NCBI GenBank assembly: GCA_918797485.1
Contig: CAKKNE010000002.1
Span: forward strand, 896,501 to 960,500
Origin: Pelagomonas calceolata
Lineage: Eukaryota; Sar; Pelagophyceae; Pelagomonadales; Pelagomonadaceae
Length of the DNA: 64,000 nucleotides
Direction: 5' to 3'
In this document: positions 3,001-53,089 of the stretch, one piece after another
Numbering within the stretch: the first letter of the stretch is position 1
Layout of the letters: each line of letters starts with the position of its first letter
Notes under the pieces: model-generated
Told to the model about the DNA's origin: nothing
Seen by the model: the letters and a program-made list of their open reading frames with translations, nothing else
Databases searched by the model: none
Program-made: the position numbers and the translations under genes

Positions 3001-6000
3001 TTTTCACTCCATATATCGGGACACGTCCTGAGCTTCTCCAGCCTGAACGTCGAGGAAGCATCGCGGGGCCAGATGGGCGATAAGGTATCGTTTATGATAC
3101 TAGTAGTACCGATCTTCTCGCCGCCGTGATACCCCACCACAAACGGGTCCGACAGTGAGAAGGTGTCGCACTGCTTCAGGTTCTGGGCTCGTACGATATC
3201 AATTTCTATCGCGGATAATCTCGGTAACGTGTTATTGGAAGGTGCTACTGTCCTGGCGCCTCGGACACAAGCTATCAATTCAGCTAGATCCTTGGGCACT
3301 TCGCTTCTACATCGTAAATGCGCTCCTTTTAGCCACTTGCCCTTCCGATTGGGCACTTTGTTCATAGGTATATCTCGCGTGACACCATACAGGAGATCCT
3401 CGGTGGTCATCCTAGCCATGCCCAGCAGTCTTCTGGAGCCTACTTGTTCACAGTGTAACTCTAAAGATCCTTCTATCCTCGTGATAGGTACGTCCACATA
3501 TAAAGCGCCCTTGTCCCGCACGACGGGCAGGTCGTGCGCCTGCCAGCCGACCCATTTTGAGCGGACCTGCACCTTCTTGCGCTTGATCTTCTTCTTCGTT
3601 ATGTTTTTCAAGCTGGACTTCGCCGCATTCATGCCTCCCTGGGCGGTCGTGAGCGCTCCTTGGGCGCCCGACTGCGCGAGAGCCGCGAGCTGCGAAGGGT
3701 CCATCGCGGCGTCCTGGATGGCGAGAGCACCGAGTGCGACGTTCTTCTGGGCGGCCGCGGCCGTATCTTGTGCTAAAGCGAGAGCTGAAGAGCCCAGCGC
3801 GAGAGCGGAAGAGCCTGCACCTAGTATGCCCGCGGTCAGAGCGCCAGTTATCCCATCGTCGGCCTCGCCCTCTTCGTCGGCGCCATATTGAATACCTTCT
3901 AAATGTAAACGTACTCTAGCTAGTAATTGCGTCCGGATCTCCACAAAACCCGTCACCGGAGACTCGCCGGGCTGCGGTCGTAGCTCCCGTTGCAGAGGTC
4001 CCGTCGAATTCAGATACTCACTCACCGGAAAGATGGCCATACCTAAAGCATCATCCCCGTCCCCGAAGATTTTGCCCGCCGTCCCGTCGCTATCATAGAG
4101 CTCAACGACAATTTGATGGTCGCGGCACGTCGCATCCACTCGAACCGGAAATCTGAATGATTGCTGGCCCCACACAGGATCACAATTATTGTTCACCACG
4201 GATGTTCTCCCTATCGTTTTTAAACAGTGCTGGGGGCCGTACCTAATCGTCGCGTAGGGATCCGACGAGCCGCCGAGTAGCGAGATGTCGGCGTTTCTGA
4301 GTTTTCCGGCTCGCAAGACACAGACCTCGACGATGGCCGTCGGTCGCACGAAAAATCCCAAATCCTGGGGCTCCAGCTCATTCAGCAAAGTGTATTTTCG
4401 CTTCGTAGGTGACGGTCGCGGCGGCAAATCCATGGGAGTGAACATACTAGGGGGATGAATGGGCGGCGGCCGCGGGTCGCGCCACCAGCGTGGCACGGGT
4501 CTGAGCGTGCCGTCTTCCTTCGTCCGCTCTTTTTTACTAAGTCGCTCCCACCAGTATTTTCGGCCCGACTTCTTGTCGCGAGCTTGTCTTACGTCGCGGC
4601 CGGCCCACAACTCCAGGTCCGCGCGAGCCTTCTCCTTGTTGAGCTTTCTTATCTTGCGCTCCATCTCCTGGGCGGCCCTTGCTTTGTCTAGGGGGTCCTT
4701 TTGTCCATCAAGCGGCGCGCGCGGCCAAGCTACGGGCTCCATGCTCCCCGGGATGTAGGACGTCTCCACCTGCACGTCTAAAAAGCCGGACGCAACCGGA
4801 CCATTTACTGATGCGTTGAAGGCCGGCCCGAGCTCATACACATCCCCAGGGTGCGGCCTGAGTAGGTGCTCGTGCGGGATGACCGCACAACCAAGGAAGT
4901 CATCACTACCAACGAGGTCGTGGTCGAAGACTTCAATCAGCAAATCGGCGGCCTCGCCCTCGGTCGGCGCGTGCGTCGGCACCGTGAACTCGAAAACGGC
5001 GTTCCAGCACGGGTCGAGCGTCGAGTTACAAATTTTCGTCTTGGCCACTCGTTTGCCCTGATATTTCACAACACAGTAGGGGTCGGCGCGACCGCCCAAG
5101 ACACCTGAAACACCCCAATCTGCGGGTCTGATATCATGGGCCCCAGTCACGCGAAGTCGCACGCGCGCGACGTGCCACACCCTCACAAACATCAGCGCGC
5201 CGCCCGCCACAATGTGCTCCTCCAGCGTCTCCGGCTCGACCTTCTTCTTCATGGACTTGCCCTTGACCGCTCTACTCACATGTTTCTCCATGCGCGACCT
5301 GCGTCGAACGACGGCGTCGCGACACTGCGTAGACTCTCTGACGGCCCCATCGATTGTGTAGAGGTGGCATGACCTCGTGGCGACGCCATCTTCCCAAAGT
5401 TGAAGTTGAGAAATTGAAGGAAACCACGCTGAGTCACCGACTTGTGGAATTTCAGAAAGTGCATTTCCCGCTTGTGATACGCGTCGTTCCGCTGCCCGTG
5501 CATTTTTAAGCAATGTTCTCCTTCACACATGAGCTCCTCCCAGTGCATCGTCGCGCTGCCCATGGGCCGGTCGCGGCCGACGTCGTCGTCAAAAACGTTC
5601 AGCGTGACCACGTACTCGCTGGCCGACGTGCCTTGGGTCTCCTTGGCGTAGGTCGGCACGTTCTTGAGCGTGAAGGTCTCCTTGTCATTTTTATTGGTCC
5701 ATACCGGGTTGAGGGTGTTGGGCCTTGTCGAGGTTCGGCCTAATCTCTTCTTCTGCAGTCTCACAGACACGTACGGATCGGGTAGCATGAAATTGACCTT
5801 GCGATTGAGGAAACCCTTCTTGTTCTTCAAATTCGTACACTTCGTCACACAAAACTTGACCCAGCACCCATCTAAACGATTGGCCGTTTGCGCTTGCATC
5901 ACTCTCTTGCAGAGCCGTCTCCGCAGGTTGCAGATGGCCACGCTTTGTTCGACCTTGAAACTGAGCGTCCCGTGGGCCTGGCGCTTCTTCCTTCCATTAG

Positions 6001-9000
6001 CATCCTTGTCTAGGAGTCGTCGAGTGACGAGACCCCCCGTTTCCGCGGCTGTTACTAGTTCTGCAGGGTCAATAGCTACCAACCCCAAAAAATCATCGCC
6101 CAAAAAGTCGTGGTCCCAGACCTCCACGAGCACGGCCGCGAAAAGACTATCAGGTTGCGTCAGAGGTACGCTCAGGTTGAGCGTGAAGTTCCACCGCGGA
6201 TTCAGCGTTCGTTTCTCCGGGGCGCACCTTCCTACTGTTCTACAGCCAACGGCGGCCCACTTCACTTTCACATAGGGATCGCTCGTGCCCGACGGGTCCG
6301 CGGCCCGGATCTCGTCGGCCTGATTCACGCAGAGCTGCAGGCAGCCACAGACAGCACATCTCACTTCCAACCATCCTAACTTGGGATTGACATTTTTGGG
6401 GTCCCGCAGGAAGCGTTGGGACGGGCACTCCGGCTGCAACGCGTATCTTCTTATCACCGCGTCCGTGCACAGATCATCCGCGCCGAGCCGCACGAGGCCC
6501 ATCAACGTTTTACTGAAAAGATCCTGGTCCCAGACCTCGAGTCTTAACTCAACTCGTTCGCAAGGTAACCCTTTGTGGTTCAAGGGTACTTGGACCAAGA
6601 ACGATTCGTCTTTCCAGTGAGGTGACAAAGTGTCGAACTTCGTTTTTGTCTGGCCGATGACTTTGCCGTTACGACGTACGATCACGAACGGATCGGCGCC
6701 ACCGATCAGATCGGTTCTTAGTAGATTACCAGCTCTCAGTATATGTACCGTGACCTCCGCCTCCGGCGGCTGCTGGCCGCCATGCTCGACCAACGGCATA
6801 TACTGGATGCGCTGCGCCTTCTTCGGCTCGGCCACACCAAAGGGGATGTAGAAAGCCCTCAAGTTGAGTTCCGCGTAGCCCTGCGGCGCCGGGTCCTCGG
6901 ACATGCCCGGCCGCCGCGTGAGGTAGTGCGGCACGCCCGGCGACGGGAAGGCCGCGTCCAGGCGTGATACGGATACTAACCCGAGGAAATCATCTTGGGA
7001 AAGTAAATCCTCCTCCCAGATCTCCACATGTAAAAAATCGAAGAGAATCTCGTCCTCCTCGGGGTCTAATGGGACAGAGAATGAAGCGGGTTTTTCAGGA
7101 CCGTACCAGAGCGGATCGAGTTGATTTGAGGCCGTCGACGACTTCCCTAACACCTCGCGGCCCCACTTGAACAAGCAATACGCATCGGGCACGTCAAACA
7201 CATCTCTCTGAGGTAAATGACTGGCCTCATAGGCCCTAGCATGCACAATGACCTCATGCGTAATCTTGATCACAACGACGCCTTGCGCAGCATAGCGCTG
7301 CGACTTGTTACCTCTGTAGCCCGGTCGCTCCTTCAGCTTCAACTTCTTAACCCCAGGCGTCATGAGCTCTCGCCACGACACGCGCGCGAAGCCCAGAAAG
7401 TCTTTCGACACCGCGTCGTCGTCGAAGACCTCGATGTGCACGTCGACCGCCGGCTCGCCCTTACCAGCCGCTTCGGCTGCTAATTTATCAGCTTGTAATT
7501 TCAACGCGCGACTCGCCTCGGGGTCCGTTTCTCCCGCCGCTACTTGTGGAGCATCGTCGTCACTCTCAGAATCTTCCTGCTTCTTCGGCCTTCGTCGTTT
7601 GAACCACGAACTCCTTTTGGGTTCGAAATAGTCGGGATCAGACTTCTCGACGACTCGCGTCGGGATATCAGTTAATACAAATAAGTTTTTTGAATCCCAG
7701 ACGGGGTGCGTCGTCGAATCGCAAGATGGAGTTCTTCCTAATTTATGACCATCTCGGAAGACGACCGCATACGGATCACCGGCGCACGTCGCGAAGCAGT
7801 CCGCCTTCCTGAGCCCGTCGGCCCGTAAAACCTTCAGGCGCACGTGGCACCGCGGTAGGTCATTGCGTGTGAGTGTTTTGGAGGTCACATACGCCGTGTT
7901 CTTCTGGCACAGGTCCATGATGCCCGGTGGAGTAAAGATACGTAACTGAATCGTCCCCTGCACGGCCTCGCCCTTTTTCCGCGGCTGCAGGGGTTTTACT
8001 ACTTTCGCCATCGTTCGTTGTCTCACAATAAACGAACCGTCCAAATTAACTTGTCCGAGGAAATCATCACTGCCAAAATAGTCGTCGTCCCACACAGAAA
8101 TTTGTATAAACCCGCCGTGCACCGGTCGGATGAGTGGAATCGCTACCAAAAAGGCGTGGTTCCAGTCCGGGGAGAGACTATCGGAGATCGTTCGTGTTTG
8201 AGATAATTTGCGAGAGTTGTGGCCGACCCACCTGGCAATGGCATAAGGGTCGCTCGCGCCGCCGAGCGCGCCGTCTGCGGCCAGCAGGTGCTTCGCGCAG
8301 TCCACGAAGATGGCCACGACGCCGCTCACATGGATGCGCACCGTCAAGTGGCCCGTCGTCAACGCTCGTTTTTCTGGCGGCGAGTCGGGGTGGGGCACCA
8401 GTGCTTTCTCGAGCGGCTGGAGTCGCGGCTCCAGCAATTCTTCCCTGGACAATTGAACCATGCCTAAAGCATCATCCCCGCCCACATCATAGTCCCAGAC
8501 GCCTAGTCGCACGCCCTGGAAGGCGTCACTCATCAAATCGAACGTCACGCGCAGCACCTCGTTCCATCGTGGTGACAATGTTTGGCTCTTCCAGGCCGTC
8601 TTTCCTATCTCTTCAGGTGTCTTTGTAGATGATAATGCATGCCCTTTCACGTAGGGGTCGCTCTTCGACGAAAATACGCCTATATCGGCGCCTCGTAGAC
8701 CTCGGGCCGATAGAATACAAATCTCGACCTCTACTAGTTCCCGTTTTTCTTGCTCGTACCTGAGAGCGTCCTGGGCCTTGATGGCGGCCGTCTCGGCCTC
8801 CTTGGCCTTCTCTTGCGCCTCTTTTTCGATGCGCTCTGAGACTTTAGGCTCATCTTCAGCGACTGTGCGCGGCGTCGCCGTCTCGTCGGACTCCTCGCCG
8901 TCGAGTTCCTTTTCCTTGGTCTCTTCCTTCGGTTCCGTTAGTACCGAAACGGTGTCTAGAGACTTTCGTTCCAGCGAGCCGGACTCGTCGACCGTGGTCA

Positions 9001-10247
9001 AAGAATCTTCGCGCAGAGTTGGCGTGGTATTGGTATAACTCTCCCACTCCGACGACTCCGCATCCGCAGGTGCCGGGGCTTCCGCTTCCGCGTCTGGAGA
9101 AGCGATAGAGAAAGCTAGCGACGAGTCATCCATGGGAGAAGCTCCGGGAAACGTGTCGCCGTCGTGAAGCAGCACCTCGCCCTCGCCCCCCAATTCTTCG
9201 GCGAGAGATGTGGTCTGCAGGGACGTATCCTCGGGCAATGACGTCTGGACGCTTGACTGGTGGAAGAACGGCTCCTCGAGCGGCGACGCGTCGGAGCCCA
9301 ACGGCGAGCCCAACGAACTGCGCGACCCGGGCTTGTACGGCGACGTGTTCGGTCGCGACGAGGCCGGCGACGACCAGCCGGACTCACTCCCTTCCGCCAC
9401 GGGCGTCATCGGCCGAAAACCCAATCGGCGGTGCCACAGGTCCTCGTCGTCGTAGTCGCCGTCGTCGCTATACGGCGACTCCGGCCGGTCGTCGTCGTAG
9501 TCGTAGGAGTCGTCGTCGTAGTAGGTCGGAGACATGGGCCTTTCCTCAAAAGGTAACTCGTCTTCTATCGTACCGGACGCGGTCGACGCGTGGGAGTCGA
9601 AGAAGCCGCCGGCGTCGTCGTCCTGGTCGTCCTCCTCGGGCGTCATGGACCTCTCGCTATAGTCGGAGCCTCCACTGCTGGGTCTGGAGTCGTAGGTGCC
9701 CGCGCTCGACGGTCGGAACGAATCACTGCTACCGGGCCGGTCGTAGGAACCGCCTGACGACGGCCGCATATCAGGGCCGACGACGCGCACAGTAAGCTGC
9801 GGTTTTTTGGGCGGGATCGGCGGCGCCGCCTTCGACTCTGGAACAGGTGGCATCGGCTTCTTGGCAGGGGCCTGTGTGGAAATCAAAATTTTACGGCGCG
9901 TTCGTGCTGAATTTTCGCGTCGTCCTCCACGCCATCGACGCGACGCCTGCTCGATGGCTTGGCGATGCCGATTCCTCGCCGCTCGACGGAACCAGCGCGG
10001 CCACGCCATCGCCGAGACATGACTTAGTGAAGAATTATCGGGTGCACCCGACGCGCTGGTTGATTTCCACACAGGCTGGGGCCTTCCTCCCACCTTTCGG
10101 ATTGAACTTGGCCTTGGTCTTGGCCTGGGGCTTGGGCCGGCCCCTGTCCTTCGTGGGCTTGGGCGGCCGGCGCCCGCGCTTGAGGGGGCTCGAGCCGCCA
10201 CTGGAGACGCTCGCATAGGACGCGTCGTCCTTCGACTCGTCGGCCAT
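1..10247 (-). CDS. Giant multi-C2-domain protein (partial, continues past left edge)
   Basis: A very long minus-strand gene read as exons 10247-10083, 9871-5385, 5298-696 and 533-<1. The last reading frame is open to the left edge, so the C-terminus is missing. The start is the ATG at 10247 (MADESKDD). About 480 N-terminal residues are acidic, Ser/Pro-rich and low complexity. At least 13 C2 domains follow, recognised by repeated SDPY/SDPF/ADPY cores, LxPxW and DxDxxxxDDFLG motifs. Seven lie before 5385 and at least six after, with a partial one at the edge. Near 1,970-1,880 a WW-like segment (GRNFWFDVW) separates C2 units, and near 2,750-2,540 there is a Cys-rich insert (CCTCCPC). C2 domains usually bind Ca2+ and phospholipid or proteins. 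The arrangement resembles ferlin/MCTP-type membrane proteins, but no transmembrane segment is seen in the part present. Family assignment is secure; function is not. Confidence 0.85.
534..695 (-). other. Candidate AT-rich intron in the multi-C2 gene
   Basis: In sense orientation the segment begins GTGCGTATG and ends ATATCCACAG before GACGAAGAG. It is 162 bp, a multiple of three with no stop, so it also reads as protein. Its (TA)n/(CA)n dinucleotide runs would encode an odd Tyr/Ile/His stretch between two acidic, hydrophilic segments. Composition is sharply more AT-rich than the flanks. Removal is phase 0. Intron versus low-complexity coding insert cannot be decided from sequence alone. Confidence 0.5.
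5299..5384 (-). other. Inferred intron in the multi-C2 gene
   Basis: The frame of the seventh C2 block stops at 5276-5278, whereas the next C2 block is open in another frame from about 5297 leftwards. A GT (5384) to CAG (5299) intron of 86 bp joins the two in frame (phase 2), giving KMA followed by SRMEKHVS. GTCGC lies at both the donor and just after the acceptor. Other splice pairs are possible. Confidence 0.5.
9872..10074 (-). mobile_element. Introner element inside the multi-C2 gene
   Basis: A 203-bp element with terminal inverted repeats CTGTGTGGAAATC and GATTTCCACACAG. It is flanked by an 8-bp near-duplication (GCAGGGGC at 9864-9871, GCTGGGGC at 10075-10082; one mismatch). It is clearly homologous to the element in ureG at 52393-52570, in the same orientation relative to gene sense. 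The reading frame changes across it, so it must be removed. Taking the duplicated 8 bp as part of the intron gives a GC-AG intron, 10082 to 9872, joining GGRK to APAKK. A GT-AG alternative starting inside the terminal repeat (GTGGAAAT) is also in frame and would add APAC to the protein. Confidence 0.85.
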
Positions 10248-14166: not shown

Positions 14167-14652
14167 TTACGTGAAGGTCTTCTTCGTCATGATGCCGTAG
14201 AACTCGTCCGGCGAGATCTCGCCGTCCTGGTCCGTGTCGGCGCGCTCGATCATCTCCATGAGCTCCGCGTCGGACATGGTCTCGCCGAGCTCCTTGGCGA
14301 CGCGCTTGAGGTTGCGCAGCGTGATGCGGCCCGTCTGGTCGTCGTCGAAGAGGTTGAACACCTTCTGGATGTCCTCGCGCGTGTCCTTGTCGGACATCTT
14401 CGCCGTCATCATGTCGAGGAACTCCTCGAAGTCGATGGAGCCGTCGTTGTCCTTGTCGATGTCGCCGATCATCTGGTAGATGGTCTGGTTCTTGGCCTCG
14501 AAGCCGAGCGACTGCATGGCCGCCTTGAGCTCCTTGGGGTCGATCGTGCCGGAGCCATCCGTGTCGAAGAGGTTGAAGGCCTCGCGGATCTCCTCGATCT
14601 CCTCCTCGGAGAGGCCGGGGCGCTCGTAGGTTTTCGTGGGACGCTTGGGCAT
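14167..14652 (-). CDS. CETN: Centrin (caltractin), copy 1
   Basis: A 161-residue centrin, a Ca2+-binding protein of basal bodies and centrosomes. Four EF-hands are visible: loops at 30-41 ([12 protein letters not shown]), 66-77 ([12 protein letters not shown]), 103-114 ([12 protein letters not shown]) and 139-150 ([12 protein letters not shown]). The third lacks the terminal acidic residue and is probably weak or inactive. The N-terminus ([18 protein letters not shown]) is the usual short basic lead. The start ATG is preceded by an A-run on the sense strand. The encoded protein is identical to copy 2 at 17408-17893. It is divergent from the amidase gene. Confidence 0.95.
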
Positions 14653-17407: not shown

Positions 17408-17893
17408 TTACGTGAAGGTCTTCTTCGTCATGATGCCGTAGAACTCGTCCGGCGAGATCTCGCCGTCCTGGTCCGTGTCGGCGCGCTCGATCATCTCCAT
17501 GAGCTCCGCGTCGGACATGGTCTCGCCGAGCTCCTTGGCGACGCGCTTGAGGTTGCGCAGCGTGATGCGGCCCGTCTGGTCGTCGTCGAAGAGGTTGAAC
17601 ACCTTCTGGATGTCCTCGCGCGTGTCCTTGTCGGACATCTTCGCCGTCATCATGTCGAGGAACTCCTCGAAGTCGATGGAGCCGTCGTTGTCCTTGTCGA
17701 TGTCGCCGATCATCTGGTAGATGGTCTGGTTCTTGGCCTCGAAGCCGAGCGACTGCATGGCCGCCTTGAGCTCCTTGGGGTCGATCGTGCCGGAGCCGTC
17801 CGTGTCGAAGAGGTTGAAGGCCTCGCGGATCTCCTCGATCTCCTCCTCGGAGAGGCCGGGGCGCTCGTAGGTTTTCGTGGGGCGCTTGGGCAT
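17408..17893 (-). CDS. CETN: Centrin (caltractin), copy 2
   Basis: A 161-residue protein identical to centrin copy 1, with the same four EF-hand loops and the same degenerate third loop. By eye the two coding regions differ at only two of 486 positions, both silent (one Asp and one Arg codon). The similarity falls away abruptly upstream of the ATG: copy 1 has an A-run, copy 2 has AACAACC. A short similar stretch persists after the stop. The gene is divergent from the alpha/beta hydrolase at 18442. Confidence 0.95.
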
Positions 17894-40409: not shown

Positions 40410-43078
40410 ATGCCTTGCAGCAACTTCGGCACGGCTCAGACAGCATGGACTCACGATACTGATCTTGGATTGTTGAGCAGAAGGTCGTGGTCCTTCGCGA
40501 ACTACACTGGTGGCTCCGAGGCTCGTGGAGACGCATGGGCAGGGCCCTCGCGGTTGGTCGCCGCGCGCCCATGCGATTCGCTCCCGTTCAAATACGAGCT
40601 CCTCGGCGTGCCTTGGACGGCAAACGACGTTTCATCTGTTAGCTCTGGATTAGTCAGCTTCGAGGCTCGTGGAGACGCATGGGCAGGGCCCTCGCGGTTG
40701 GTCGCCGCGCGCCCATGCGATTCGCTCCCGTTCAAATACGAGCTCCTCGGCGTGCCTTGGACGGCAAACGACGTTTCATCTGTTAGCTCTGGATTAGTCA
40801 GCTCCGAGGCTCGTGGGAGCGCATGGGCAGGGCCCTCGCGGTTGGTCGCCGCGCGCCCATGCGATTCGCTCCCGTTCAAATACGAGCTCCTCGGCGTGCC
40901 TTGGACGGCAAACGACGTTTTATGTGATGCTCTGGATTAGTCAGCTTCGAGGCTCGTGGAGACGCATGGGCAGGGCCCTCGCGGTTGGTCGCCGCGCGCC
41001 CATGCGATTCGCTCCCGTTCAAATACGAGCTCCTCGGCGTGCCTTGGACGGCAAACGACGTTTCATCTGTTAGCTCTGGATTAGTCAGCTCCGAGGCTCG
41101 TGGAGACGCATGGGCAGGGCCCTCGCGGTTGGTCGCCGCGCGCCCATGCGATTCGCTCCCGTTCAAATACGAGCTCCTCGGCGTGCCTTGGACGGCAAAC
41201 GACGTTTTATGTGATAGCTCTGGATTAGTCAGCTTCGAGGCTCGTGGAGACGCATGGGCAGGGCCCTCGCGGTTGGTCGCCCGCGCGCCCATGCGATTCG
41301 CTCCCGTTCAAATACGAGCTCCTCGGCGTGCCTTGGACGGCAAACGACGTTTTATGTGATAGCTCTGGATTAGTCAGCTTCGAGGCTCGTGGAGCGCATG
41401 GGCAGGGCCCTCGCGGTTGGTCGCCGCGCGCCCATGCGATTCGCTCCCGTTCAAATACGAGCTCCTCGGCGTGCCTTGGACGGCAAACGACGTTTCATCT
41501 GTTAGCTCTGGATTAGTCAGCTTCGAGGCTCGTGGAGGCGCATGGGCAGGGCCCTCGCGGTTGGTCGCCGCGCGCCCATGCGATTCGCTCCCGTTCAAAT
41601 ACGAGCTCCTCGGCGTGCCTTGGACGGCAAACGACGTTTCATCTGTTAGCTCTGGATTAGTCAGCTCCGAGGCTCGTGGAGGCGCGGGCAGGGCCCTCGC
41701 GGTTGGTCGCCGCGCGCCCATGCGATTCGCTCCCGTTCAAATACGAGCTCCTCGGCGTGCCTTGGACGGCAAACGACGTTTTATGTGATGCCTGGATTAG
41801 TCAGCTTCGAGGCTCGTGGAGCGCATGGGCAGGGCCCTCGCGGTTGGTCGCCGCGCGCCCATGCGATTCGCTCCCGTTCAAATACGAGCTCCTCGGCGTG
41901 CCTTGGACGGCAAACGACGTTTCATCTGTTAGCTCTGGATTAGTCAGCTCCGAGGCTCGTGGAGACGCATGGGCAGGGCCCTCGCGGTTGGTCGCCGCGC
42001 GCCCATGCGATTCGCTCCCGTTCAAATACGAGCTCCTCGGCGTGCCTTGGACGGCAAACGACGTTTCATCTGTTAGCTCTGGATTAGTCAGCTCCGAGGC
42101 TCGTGGAGACGCATGGGCAGGGCCCTCGCGGTTGGTCGCCGCGCGCCCATGCGATTCGCTCCCGTTCAAATACGAGCTCCTCGGCGTGCCTTGGACGGCA
42201 AACGACGTTTTATGTGATAGCTCTGGATTAGTCAGCTTCGAGGCTCGTGGAGACGCATGGGCAGGGCCCTCGCGGTTGGTCGCCGCGCGCCCATGCGATT
42301 CGCTCCCGTTCAAATACGAGCTCCTCGGCGTGCCTTGGACGGCAAACGACGTTTTATGTGATAGCTCTGGATTAGTCAGCTTCGAGGCTCGTGGAGACGC
42401 ATGGGCAGGGCCCTCGCGGTTGGTCGCCGCGCGCCCATGCGATTCGCTCCCGTTCAAATACGAGCTCCTCGGCGTGCCTTGGACGGCAAACGACGTTTCA
42501 TCTGTTAGCTCTGGATTAGTCAGCTTCGAGGCTCGTGGAGACGCATGGGCAGGGCCCTCGCGGTTGGTCGCCGCGCGCCCATGCGATTCGCTCCCGTTCA
42601 AATACGAGCTCCTCGGCGTGCCTTGGACGGCAAACGACGTTTCATCTGTTAGCTCTGGATTAGTCAGCTCCGAGGCTCGTGGAGACGCATGGGCAGGGCC
42701 CTCGCGGTTGGTCGCCGCGCGCCCATGCGATTCGCTCCCGTTCAAATACGAGCTCCTCGGCGTGCCTTGGACGGCAAACGACGTTTTATGTGATAGCTCT
42801 GGATTAGTCAGCTTCGAGGCTCGTGGAGGCGGGCAGGGCCCTCGCGGTTGGTCGCCGCGCGCCCATGCGATTCGCTCCCGTTCAAATACGAGCTCCTCGG
42901 CGTGCCTTGGACGGCAAACGACGTTTCATCTGTTAGCTCTGGATTAGTCAGCTCCGAGGCTCGTGGAGACGCATGGGCAGGGCCCTCGCGGTTGGTCGCC
43001 GCGCGCCCATGCGATTCGCTCCCGTTCAAATACGAGCTCCTCGGCGTGCCTTGGACGGCAAACGACGTTTTATGTGAT
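40410..43078 (+). repeat. Tandem array A: 18 copies of a 144-bp repeat
   Basis: After a short unique lead beginning at ATG 40410, units start near 40517 and recur every 143-145 bp. Each full unit has 48 codons in the frame SSGLVSFEARGDAWAG..., then RLVAARPCDSLPFKYELL and GVPWTANDVSSV. Units are almost identical except for indels clustered at the GDAWAG codons and occasional changes at the unit end. The frame is kept across several multi-unit stretches (for example 41,8xx-42,8xx) but shifts at the indels. The opposite strand is also open in places. The chosen frame is favoured because array B differs from it largely at silent positions. The function is unknown. Confidence 0.9.
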
Positions 43079-46000
43079 AGCTCTGGATTGCTCGCCGTCG
43101 AGGCTACTGGAGAGTTATGGGCCGGGCTCCCGCGACTGGTCACCGCTTGCCCGGACCACGTGCTCCCGTCGAAGCGCCAGTTCTTCCACGCTCAATCGAT
43201 ACCGTACGACGTTTTATGTGATAGCTCTGGATTGCTCGCCGTCGAGGCTACTGGAGAGTTATGGGCCGGGCTCCCGCGACTGGTCACCGCTTGCCCGGAC
43301 CACGTGCTCCCGTCGAAGCGCCAGTTCTTCCACGCTCAATCGATACCGCATGACGTTTTTGTGTTCGCGCTCTGGATTGCTCGCCGTCGAGGCTACTGGA
43401 GAGTTATGGGCGGGCTCCGCGACTGGTCACCGCTTGCCCGGACCACGTGCTCCCGTCGAAGCGCCAGTTCTTCCACGCTCAATCGATACCGCGCCACGTT
43501 TTATGTGATAGCTCTGGATTGCTCGCCGTCGAGGCTACTGGGAGTTGCGGGCGGGCTCCGCGACTGGTCACCGCTTGCCCGGACCACGTGCTCCCGTCGA
43601 AGCGCCAGTTCTTCCACGCTCAATCGATACCGTACGACGTTTTATGTGTTAGCTCTGGATTGCTCGCCGTCGAGGCTACTGGAGAGTTATGGGCCGGGCT
43701 CCCGCGACTGGTCACCGCTTGCCCGGACCACGTGCTCCCGTCGAAGCGCCAGTTCTTCCACGCTCAATCGATACCGTACGACGTTTTATGTGTTAGCTCT
43801 GGATTGCTGCCGTCGAGGCTACTGGAGAGTTGCGGGCCGGGCTCCCGCGACTGGTCACCGCTTGCCCGGACCACGTGCTCCCGTCGAAGCGCCAGTTCTT
43901 CCACGCTCAATCGATACCGCACGACGTTTTATGTGATAGCTCTGGATTGCGCCGTCGAGGCTACTGGAGTTGCGGGCGGGCTCCGCGACTGGTCACCGCT
44001 TGCCCGGACCACGTGCTCCCGTCGAAGCGCCAGTTCTTCCACGCTCAATCGATACCGCACGACGTTTTATGTGTTAACCTGTATTGCTCGCCGTCGAGGC
44101 TACTGGAGAGTTATGGGCCGGGCTCCCGCGACTGGTCACCGCTAGCCCGGACCACGTGCTCCCGTCGAAGCGCCAGTTCTTCCACGCTCAATCGATACCG
44201 TACGACGTTTTATGTGATAGCTCTGGATTGCTCGCCGTCGAGGCTACTGGAGAGTTATGGGCCGGGCTCCCGCGACTGGTCACCGCGCGCCCGGACCACG
44301 TGCTCCCGTCGAAGCGCCAGTTCTTCCACGCTCAATCGATACCGTACGACGTTTTATGTGTTAGCTCTGGATTGCCGTCGAGGCTACTGGAGGGTTGGCG
44401 GGCCGGGCTCCCGCGACTGGTCACCGCGCGCCCGGACCACGTGCTCCCGTCGAAGCGCCAGTTCTTCCACGCTCAATCGATACCGCACGACGTTTTATGT
44501 TAGCTCTGGATTGCTCGCCGTCGAGGCTACTGGAGAGTTGCGGGCGGGCTCCCGCGACTGGTCACCGCTTGCCCGGACCACGTGCTCCCGTCGAAGCGCC
44601 AGTTCTTCCACGCTCAATCGATACCGTACGACGTTTTATGTGTTAGCTCTGGATTGCTCGCCGTCGAGGCTACTGGAGAGTTATGGGCCGGGCTCCCGCG
44701 ACTGGTCACCGCTTGCCCGGACCACGTGCTCCCGTCGAAGCGCCAGTTCTTCCACGCTCAACTGATACCGTACGACGTTTTATGTGATAGCTCTGGATTG
44801 CTCGCCGTCGAGGCTACTGGAGAGTTATGGGCCGGGCTCCCGCGACTGGTCACCGCTTGCCCGGACCACGTGCTCCCGTCGAAGCGCCAGTTCTTCCACG
44901 CTCAATCGATACCGTACGACGTTTTATGTGTTAGCTCTGGATTGCTCGCCGTCGAGGCTACTGGAGGTTTGGGGGCCGGGCTCCCGCGACTGGTCACCGC
45001 TTGCCCGGACCACGTGCTCCCGTCGAAGCGCCAGTTCTTCCACGCTCAATCGATACCGTACGACGTTTTATGTGTTAGCTCTGGATTGCTCGCCGTCGAG
45101 GCTACTGGAGAGTTATGGGCCGGGCTCCCGCGACTGGTCACCGCTTGCCCGGACCACGTGCTCCCGTCGAAGCGCCAGTTCTTCCACGCTCAATCGATAC
45201 CGTACGACGTTTTATGTGTTAGCTCTGGATTGCTCGCCGTCGAGGCTACTGGAGGTTGGCGGGCCGGGCTCCGCGACTGGTCACCGCTTGCCCGGACCAC
45301 GTGCTCCCGTCGAAGCGCCAGTTCTTCCACGCTCAATCGATACCGTCACGACGTTTTATGTGTTAGCTCTGGATTGCTCGCCGTCGAGGCTACTGGAGGT
45401 TGGCGGGCCGGGCTCCCGCGACTGGTCACCGCGCGCCCGGACCACGTGCTCCCGTCGAAGCGCCAGTTCTTCCACGCTCAATCGATACCGTACGACGTTT
45501 TATGTGTTAGCTCTGGATTGCTCGCCGTCGAGGCTACTGGAGAGTTATGGGCCGGGCTCCCGCGACTGGTCACCGCTTGCCCGGACCACGTGCTCCCGTC
45601 GAAGCGCCAGTTCTTCCACGCTCAATCGATACCGTACGACGTTTTATGTGTTAGCTCTGGATTGCTCGCCGTCGAGGCTACTGGAGAGTTATGGGCCGGG
45701 CTCCCGCGACTGGTCACCGCTTGCCCGGACCACGTGCTCCCGTCGAAGCGCCAGTTCTTCCACGCTCAATCGATACCGTACGACGTTTTATGTGTTAGCT
45801 CTGGATTGCTCGCCGTCGAGGCTACTGGGAGTTGGCGGGCCGGGCTCCCGCGACTGGTCACCGCTTGCCCGGACCACGTGCTCCCGTCGAAGCGCCAGTT
45901 CTTCCACGCTCAATCGATACCGTCACGACGTTTTATGTGTTAGCTCTGGATTGCTCGCCGTCGAGGCTACTGGAGTTTGCGGGCGGGCTCCCGCGACTGG

Positions 46001-47090
46001 TCACCGCTTGCCCGGACCACGTGCTCCCGTCGAAGCGCCAGTTCTTCCACGCTCAATCGATACCGTCACGACGTTTTATGTGTTAGCTCTGGATTGCTCG
46101 CCGTCGAGGCTACTGGAGAGTTGGCGGGCCGGGCTCCCGCGACTGGTCACCGCTTGCCCGGACCACGTGCTCCCGTCGAAGCGCCAGTTCTTCCACGCTC
46201 AATCGATACCGTACGACGTTTTATGTGTTAGCTCTGGATTGCTCGCCGTCGAGGCTACTGGAGAGTTATGGGCCGGGCTCCCGCGACTGGTCACCGCGCG
46301 CCCGGACCACGTGCTCCCGTCGAAGCGCCAGTTCTTCCACGCTCAATCGATACCGTACGACGTTTTATGTGTTAGCTCTGGATTGCTCGCCGTCGAGGCT
46401 ACTGGAGAGTTATGGGCCGGGCTCCCGCGACTGGTCACCGCTTGCCCGGACCACGTGCTCCCGTCGAAGCGCCAGTTCTTCCACGCTCAACTGATACCGT
46501 ACGACGTTTTATGTGTTAGCTCTGGATTGCTCGCCGTCGAGGCTACTGGAGAGTTATGGGCCGGGCTCCCGCGACTGGTCACCGCTTGCCCGGACCACGT
46601 GCTCCCGTCGAAGCGCCAGTTCTTCCACGCTCAATCGATACCGTACGACGTTTTATGTGTTAGCTCTGGATTGCTCGCCGTCGAGGCTACTGGAGAGTTA
46701 TGGGCCGGGCTCCCGCGACTGGTCACCGCTTGCCCGGACCACGTGCTCCCGTCGAAGCGCCAGTTCTTCCACGCTCAATCGATACCGTACGACGTTTTAT
46801 GTGTTAGCTCTGGATTGCTCGCCGTCGAGGCTACTGGAGAGTTATGGGCCGGGCTCCCGCGACTGGTCACCGCGCGCCCGGACCACGTGCTCCCGTCGAA
46901 GCGCCAGTTCTTCCACGCTCAATCGATACCGTACGACGTTTTATGTGTTAGCTCTGGATTGCTCGCCGTCGAGGCTACTGGAGAGTTATGGGCCGGGCTC
47001 CCGCGACTGGTCACCGCTTGCCCGGACCACGTGCTCCCGTCGAAGCGCCAGTTCTTCCACGCTCAACTGATACCGTACGACGTTTCATCT
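43079..47090 (+). repeat. Tandem array B: 28 copies of a related 144-bp repeat
   Basis: This array abuts array A exactly at an AGCTCTGGATT unit boundary. The unit encodes SSGLLAVEATGELWAG, LPRLVTACPDHVLPSKRQ and FFHAQSIPYDVLCV (48 residues) and aligns end to end with the array A unit, sharing SSGL, EA-G, WAG, PRLV and the final DV. Units are near-identical apart from indels centred on GAGTTATGGGCCGGGCTCC. Minor variants are GCTTGC/GCGCGC and TCGATACC/CTGATACC. The last unit ends GACGTTTCATCTG, the array A type of ending. Two forward frames are open over long stretches (up to 853 codons), so coding status is uncertain. Confidence 0.9.
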
Positions 47091-52132: not shown

Positions 52133-53089
52133 ATGCTCGCGCGGTGCCGCCGCGTGGCCAGCACACAACTGCGGGCCCGGCGCCAGGCGCACAGCCACAC
52201 TCATGAGCACCTCGACTCGCCGGGCGAGTTCAGCCGGCGCGAGACGGGCCTGCCGGCGCACTGGCGGGGAAGGGACTGGCGGCGGCGCGCGTTCACGGTG
52301 GGCATCGGCGGCCCCGTCGGCAGCGGCAAGACGGCGCTGACGCTGCAGCTCTGCCGGGCGCTGCGCGAGAAGCACTCGCTGGCCGTCGTGACCTGTGTGG
52401 AAATCAACCAGTGCGTCGGGTGCACCCGAAAATTCTTCACTAAGTCATTTCTCGACGATGACGCGGCCGTCCTGGCTCGGTCGAGCGGCGAGGAACCGGC
52501 ATCGCCACGCCATCGAGCAGACGTCGCGTCGATGGCGTGAACGCGCCGTAAAATTTTAATTTCCACACAGGTCGTGACGAACGACATCTTCACGCGCGAG
52601 GACGCCGAGTTCCTGACGCGGAACGCGGCGCTGCCGGCGGACCGCATCGCTGCGGTCGAGACGGGGGGCTGCCCGCACGCGGCGATCCGCGAGGACGTGA
52701 GCGCGAACCTCGAGGCCCTCGAGGCGCTGACGCGGGCCCACCCGGACGCCGAGCTCCTGCTGTGCGAGTCGGGCGGCGACAACCTCGCGGCGCACTTCTC
52801 GAACGAGCTCGCGGACTTCTCGGTCTACGTCATCGACGTCGCGGGCGGCGACAAGGTGCCGCGCAAGGGCGGGCCGGGCATCACGCAGGCGGACGTCCTC
52901 GTCGTCAACAAGGTCGACCTCGCGCCGGCCGTCGGCGCGGACCTGGACGTGATGCGCCGCGACGCGCTCAAGATGCGCGGCGCCGGGCCGACCGTCTTCG
53001 CCGCCGTGAAGCACGGCGACGGCCTCGACGCGATCATCGGCGAGATCTTCGCCGCGCAGCGGCGCGCGCTGGCGGCGGCGGCGGAGTAG
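52133..53089 (+). CDS. ureG: Urease accessory GTPase UreG
   Basis: Exons 52133-52384 and 52571-53089 give 256 residues. UreG is the SIMIBI-class GTPase that uses GTP to deliver nickel to urease with UreF and UreD/H. Visible are a His-containing N-terminus ([14 protein letters not shown]), the P-loop GGPVGSGKT (59-67), [15 protein letters not shown] (85-99), the metal-binding CPH triad (118-120), ESGGDN and the G4 motif NKVD (197-200). Splicing out the introner restores the universally conserved LAVVTNDI exactly. The start is the ATG at 52133; upstream open frame lacks an ATG. The gene implies that the organism uses urea as a nitrogen source; no other urease gene is in the window. Confidence 0.95.
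52385..52570 (+). other. Introner-derived intron in ureG
   Basis: A 186-bp intron. The 5' GT is the first two bases of the 8-bp target duplication GTCGTGAC; the 3' AG is the last two bases of the element. It splits Ala84 from Val85 in phase 0. An alternative GT inside the terminal repeat would also be in frame but would insert VVTC into an invariant motif, so the duplication-derived site is preferred. Confidence 0.88.
52393..52570 (+). mobile_element. Introner element in ureG (178 bp)
   Basis: The element has termini CTGTGTGGAAATC and AATTTCCACACAG. Perfect 8-bp direct repeats GTCGTGAC flank it at 52385-52392 and 52571-52578. The interior is homologous to the element at 9872-10074, including CGGGTGCACCCG, TTCTTCACTAAGTCAT, CGAGCGGCGAGGAA and CGGCATCGCCA, with a few indels. 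No coding capacity: a non-autonomous element. Confidence 0.93.

Follow-up and report, generated by a model that had tools for sequence, protein, structure and literature searches.

An introner in ureG of Pelagomonas calceolata and the target-site duplication as probable source of 5′ splice sites in its family

Introner elements of Aureococcus anophagefferens were reportedly described by Huff, Zilberman and Roy in 2016. According to PMC7789003 they have inverted ends as well as direct repeats whose length is constant, and their characteristic length is given as about 210 bp (PMC9481584). For Aureococcus, 39.6% GC-AG introns were reported together with a canonical 5′ end of the U1 RNA, and the cause was called an enigma (PMC3033335, 2011). 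The genome of P. calceolata RCC100 consists of six nuclear contigs (32.4 Mb), a plastid and a mitochondrion, and its peak of intron lengths at ~210 bp was ascribed to introner elements as in Aureococcus (Commun Biol 2022, PMC9481584). In an analysis of introner families in 175 genomes, a 5′ splice site supplied by the duplication and a 3′ splice site carried by the element were described, with 0–50% GC donors and 0–40% GA donors depending on the family (PNAS 2022, PMC9860276). The introner mechanism is thus already published, as the preliminary description of the present locus had said, and introners in P. calceolata are already inferred in outline.

In the main text of PMC9481584, neither the sequence of the ends nor a duplication or a donor rule is given, and no locus is named. 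Pelagomonas is absent from the main text of PMC9860276, and a comparison of the coding strand with the other end was not found there. A paper on mirusviruses that mentions introners (PMC12768974) holds, in the sections covered, nothing on the Pelagomonas family. In the literature listings searched, no anatomical account of the family was encountered, and we make no claim that none has been published. What the present analysis contributes is a donor rule resolved by strand, which is relevant to the abundant GC-AG introns of Aureococcus, as well as the findings that donors beyond GY match U1 no better than random sites and that pairing of the terminal repeats is predicted for 71 of 72 folded introns. 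The family resembles the Aureococcus introners in its pelagophyte host, its inverted ends, its direct repeats and its length of ~210 bp; the likeness is one of host and architecture and is no claim of homology.

The window analyzed is a stretch of 64,000 nucleotides, in which ureG is located on the plus strand. Exon 1 (52133–52384), to which homologues were aligned, comprises 84 codons from the presumed start ATG and ends with the residues SLA. It is followed by the left target-site duplication GTCGTGAC (52385–52392), whose GT (52385–52386) is the putative 5′ splice site according to the family-level rule described below. The non-autonomous element, an introner of 178 bp (52393–52570), starts with CTGTGTGG and ends with CCACACAG. 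Its left terminal inverted repeat CTGTGTGGAAAT (52393–52404) is paired in the predicted fold with the right one, ATTTCCACACAG (52559–52570), which contributes the AG (52569–52570) of the putative 3′ splice site. The right duplication, again GTCGTGAC (52571–52578), forms the first eight bases of exon 2 (52571–53089), which closes with the stop codon TAG (53087–53089). The position of the element between perfect GTCGTGAC repeats is confirmed, and the coordinates previously assigned to both were correct on re-reading of the window. By alignment, the ureG element is 25 bp shorter than a copy of 203 bp in the same window. A TTAAT at 52556–52560 resembles a branch-site motif.

Excision of positions 52385–52570 (186 nt, a multiple of three) joins the codons GCC and GTC GTG ACG AAC GAC ATC, which encode A and VVTNDI. 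The joined codons read SLA followed by VVTNDIF, so that removal of one repeat and the element restores the UreG motif LAVVTNDI. The claim that this restoration is exact holds, since the joined codons and the UreG homologues agree. The joined protein scored 124 bits with Pfam PF02492 and matched the UreG structures 4hi0 and 5xkt in the PDB; the alignment with 4hi0 is gap-free across the junction.

For the identification of further copies, the 13-mer element end CTGTGTGGAAATC was searched in the genome (32,445,274 bases in 8 contigs). In total 1721 matches were found (878 forward and 843 reverse), compared to 1+0 matches for the reversed pattern in the same 32.4 Mb; the ureG element is therefore not a chance sequence, and the absence of other genome copies is excluded. 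Sampling was not random: copies were taken for their position on contig 1, for their similarity to that in ureG, or because one end had GC. The end sample comprised 100 of the 1721 ends, all on contig 1, with 97 located within the stretches analyzed. Of 806 places in an initial survey, 40 were scored for the similarity sample and every one of these was used, and the GC-end sample took 20 from 100 of the 371 GC ends.

Among 116 paired copies, the flanking 8-mers were identical in 66, agreed in seven positions in 26, in six positions in 7 and in fewer in 17. A duplication of at least 7/8 is thus present in 92 of the 116, whereas among mispaired control flanks 0.09% were identical at all eight positions and 4.7% at six or more. 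The 17 paired copies below 6/8 and 22 left ends without a partner were kept outside further analysis. The length of the remaining 99 copies ranges from 60 to 206 bp and is most often 203 bp, and terminal inverted repeats are present in the family, the element end reading TTTCCACACAG at both ends. Of the 72 copies used for the strand analysis below, 44 have the orientation of the gene and 28 the opposite one, an assignment that is uncertain where copies are very short. The number of copies, their inverted ends, the duplications of 8 bp and the occurrence of both orientations fit a non-autonomous DNA transposon, as had been proposed. Many similar copies at unrelated sites appear to behave as introns, judged by their coding flanks. 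The locus had been presented as a clean single-locus example of intron birth; the example is supported, but "single-locus" does not apply, since the ureG copy is one of hundreds.

The common form of 203 bp plus the 8-bp duplication gives 211 nt, which fits the published peak at ~210 bp, and the P. calceolata introns reported there (PMC9481584) are very probably the same elements. Apart from itself, a copy of 70 bp used as query retrieved only one other, identical to it, on contig 5. The viral contigs contained no exact match to the first 30 bases of the element with three positions left free.

The second copy in the window (203 bp, 9872–10074) lies on the minus strand inside a minus-strand coding region. 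Its duplications are GCCCCAGC and GCCCCTGC (7 of 8 positions), and its putative donor on the coding strand is GC. A minus-strand open frame of 1646 aa (5276–10216) spans this copy and is therefore probably a wrong gene model.

Next, the beginning of the duplication was compared between the coding strand and the other strand. Coding strand and frame were called from the flanks with a codon-usage model built on long open frames, and 72 of the 99 copies combined a duplication of 7/8 or better with a clear coding signal in both flanks. For the other 27 the duplication was below 7/8 or the coding signal weak or contradictory. Of the 72 copies, 46 have GT as the first two bases of the duplication on the coding strand, 25 have GC and 1 has GA, which makes 71 with GY. 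For the opposite end and strand, GY was counted in 23 of 72 (32%), and 18% of exon 8-mers start with GY on either strand. The discordant pairs were distributed 49 to 1 in favor of the coding strand. The same counts were obtained when strands were called without the duplication, stricter thresholds gave 61/62 and 37/37, and separation by element orientation gave 43/44 and 28/28, the shortest copies again being of uncertain orientation. The single GA copy (L072) has GT at its other end, and its strand call may be wrong. All 27 copies outside the strand table have GY at one end or both.

In the main set, 19 copies pair a GC end with a non-GY end, and in all 19 the GC lies on the coding strand. 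In the second set, selected by a GC end (20 loci with 20 paired copies), GY was found on the coding strand in 20/20, of which 13 have GY at both ends and are uninformative; in this set 2 ends were unpaired, 8/20 duplications were below 7/8 and 11/20 strand calls were not confident. The seven second-set copies with GC at one end and non-GY at the other all have GC on the coding strand (7/7, 3 of them confident). Genome-wide, position −8 of the 13-mer ends carries GT in 703 and GC in 371 cases (1074/1721, 62%), which is approximately the mean of the 99% and 32% found for the coding strand and the other end.

Support for the reading in which the 5′ splice site comes from the duplication is given by GY on the coding strand in 71/72 copies versus 23/72 at the other end, with a background of 18%; GC would serve as donor in 25 of the 72. 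The preliminary description had assigned one splice site to the insertion and the other to the element. This stands at the level of the family, given the 71/72 against 23/72 and the invariant 3′ end, as a conclusion from sequence.

On the coding strand, the last six bases of the element (ACACAG) are invariant in 72/72 copies, whereas the matching six bases at the 5′ end contain 9 mismatches in 8 copies (Fisher p 0.004). The inner repeat positions lean in the opposite direction (10 mismatches at the 5′ end versus 18 at the 3′ end). The invariance fits a 3′ splice site that would be working at one end only. Because the repeat is the same at both ends, either orientation offers a 3′ splice site.

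The occupation of the ureG site was further analyzed with environmental proteins. With the spliced UreG as query, P0001 (97% identical, 132 member sequences), P0002, P0003, P0005 and P0006 read SLAVVTNDIF without an added residue, and the 12 UreG sequences aligned among the best 120 of thousands of matches contained no extra junction residues (+4 form). P0003 departs from normal UreG after AAVK and continues with VVGRDADAQ; here another population may have an intron, left unspliced, at a second site of ureG. In P0153 the junction is SLAATNDIF, after which the protein departs from the UreG family; it is not of the exact form. When the frame through the element (window 52133–52537) was used, at least 16 clusters among the best 120 matches showed SLAVVT followed by element sequence, which represents the same site filled. 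Filled and continuous forms of the ureG site thus both occur among environmental proteins, and the filled site is seen in several exon-1 haplotypes (16 clusters).

The exon-1 peptides are the same in the filled and continuous forms P0141/P0001 and P0148/P0002, a comparison of peptides and not of DNA, which fits genomic and spliced forms of one allele. For the remaining continuous UreG proteins no filled partner with an identical exon-1 peptide was present, and continuous environmental UreG proteins could represent empty-site alleles. The tail of P0152, encoded by a single contig of 582 bp, matched best among the 99 copies to the reverse complement of the ureG element (124 versus 118 for the next). 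P0152 is apparently the ureG element inverted at the same site; this may reflect inversion in place or a second insertion, or the contig may be chimeric.

For read-through at other genes, 18 of 120 proteins without forward element read-through were dropped, and 87 non-ureG rows were reduced to 69 contexts. The codon at bases 1–3 of the duplication encodes valine in 54 and alanine in 8 of the contexts (62/69) and neither in 7. At five neighboring positions these residues were found in 11–20 of 69. The alanine share (8/62) is below the GC share in the genome (25/71), with the contexts covering one frame and orientation only. The filled junction of the second copy in the window (9872–10074) is also among these read-through proteins, in the context KGGRKAPA. 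The GC-donor copy L090 in a ClpS-like gene showed continuous forms as well as unspliced ones at the same site (P0133 runs into the element, whereas P0135 and P0136 run out of it). In the 16 sequences aligned of 17 listed ClpS matches, the +4 form was absent.

The ureG feature is very probably an introner with a donor supplied by the duplication and an acceptor carried by the element. A MITE-like non-autonomous DNA transposon, moved by a postulated and unseen transposase, would have inserted into ureG and generated the 8-bp target-site duplication. The element would be removed as a GT-AG spliceosomal intron at a deduced exact cut site. The upstream copy of the duplication would provide the 5′ splice site, GT in ureG and GC at other copies, and the terminal inverted repeat, identical at both ends, would provide the 3′ splice site in either orientation. 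Excision of one duplication together with the element would restore the original frame in any phase.

An element that carries both splice sites would use a GT inside its own end (CTGT^GTGG) and add 12 bases, the four residues VVTC, to UreG. The ureG copy does have this internal GT in the right frame, and such an internal donor was reported for a family of Aureococcus sp. (legend of Fig. 2F, PMC9860276). With an internal donor, the start of the duplication should be of no consequence; it is nevertheless GY on the coding strand in 71/72 copies, and the +4 form is absent from the 12 UreG and 16 ClpS sequences aligned. Pfam scores were higher for exact removal than for the form with 12 additional nucleotides in 7/7 genes, a test biased by construction toward the uninterrupted gene and weak because exact removal equals the pre-insertion gene. 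Donor usage within the element is therefore regarded as very unlikely in ureG.

The GT or GC of the duplication could also reflect a target preference of the transposase that is unrelated to splicing. The consensus is near-palindromic (about GYCGCGRC) and the unused end is enriched in GY compared to exon 8-mers (32% versus 18%), as such a preference would predict, but a transposase should be blind to the coding strand and its preference alone cannot give 71/72 versus 23/72. The strand-resolved comparison of the ends rules out target preference as the sole origin of the duplication pattern, and we consider it an even more improbable account than an internal donor. Spread by reverse splicing of RNA copies has been proposed for fungal introner-like elements, and most sampled copies do lie between coding flanks and behave like introns. 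Reverse splicing would predict one orientation and no duplication, whereas 8-bp duplications, inverted ends and both orientations (44 same, 28 opposite) fit DNA transposition; of the explanations weighed, reverse splicing has the least to be said for it, and its probability is close to negligible.

With the duplication as donor, the family separates two steps. The duplication matrix on the coding strand is near-palindromic at about GYCGCGRC; its first position is G in 100% of the copies on the coding strand, and the matching base at the opposite end is G in 42%. The transposase seems to have a target preference, since the duplication is near-palindromic and GY is found at 32% of the unused ends compared to 18% of the background. 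Given the coding-strand bias, selection has presumably removed insertions that lacked GY on that strand. Target preference (23/72 at the unused end versus 18%) and later selection (71/72) can thus be told apart in such a family, which bears on the old question of the origin of new introns.

The U1-complementary donor consensus was used for scoring the donors beyond their first two bases. GT donors matched it in a mean of 1.33 of 7 positions compared to 1.47 for random exon GT (p 0.32), and GC donors in 1.56 compared to 1.55 for random exon GC (p 0.97). The GY dinucleotides at the opposite end scored below the donors (0.80, n = 10 and 1.08, n = 13). Two U1 candidates, both under the Rfam gathering score, carry the canonical 5′ end ATACTTACCTG, which is the consensus U1 sequence (PMC3033335).

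In the minimum-energy folds, at least 9 of 12 pairs were formed between the terminal repeats in 71/72 introns. These predicted folds place the donor 8 nt upstream of the stem, which is closed by the AG; the fold of the ureG intron has a z of −4.1. A tentative and rather doubtful proposal from these models is that the RNA hairpin of the terminal repeats, and not pairing with U1, picks the donor, which could then be any GY 8 nt before the hairpin. The inverted repeats would pair whether or not splicing requires it, and the role of the hairpin is put forward as a hypothesis. If the proposal is true, the abundance of GC-AG introns in pelagophytes despite a canonical U1 would be explained, with GC donors following the target sites met. 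For the hairpin introners of Amoebophrya, inverted repeats were likewise proposed to fold the intron ends together, in hairpins that join the ends of the exons, but their splice sites are described as varying widely and a U1 component was not detected (PMC7789003), whereas GY was found here in 71/72 copies along with two canonical U1 candidates. The duplication mechanism would explain where GC donors come from, and it provides an account of the GC-AG abundance in Aureococcus that can be tested.

For the mobilizing element, profile searches of the genome gave no match for MULE (PF10551). The profiles of KDZ (PF18758) and of a P-type transposase (PF21787) gave no match either, but the controls for both were also silent and the searches are uninformative. 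The profile of the hAT C-terminal dimerization domain (PF05699) matched once in the genome, in a long open frame (G000:C4:4499982-4500185, L104/L105). Within L105, the 9.5 kb around the hAT-domain gene, no family ends were found (12-mer, up to 2 mismatches), and the hAT trait of a transposase between the family ends was thus not observed at the single PF05699 locus. The family does show the 8-bp target-site duplication of hAT elements, which also occurs in superfamilies other than hAT. The hAT-domain gene may supply transposase in trans, or it may have been domesticated.

Two further repeats were observed in the window. Dozens of copies of a unit of ~144 bp extend over some 6 kb (40498–46570) and overlap plus-strand open frames. 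In addition, two identical direct repeats of 300 bp (14167–14466 and 17408–17707) lie 3.2 kb apart, which suggests a recent local duplication.
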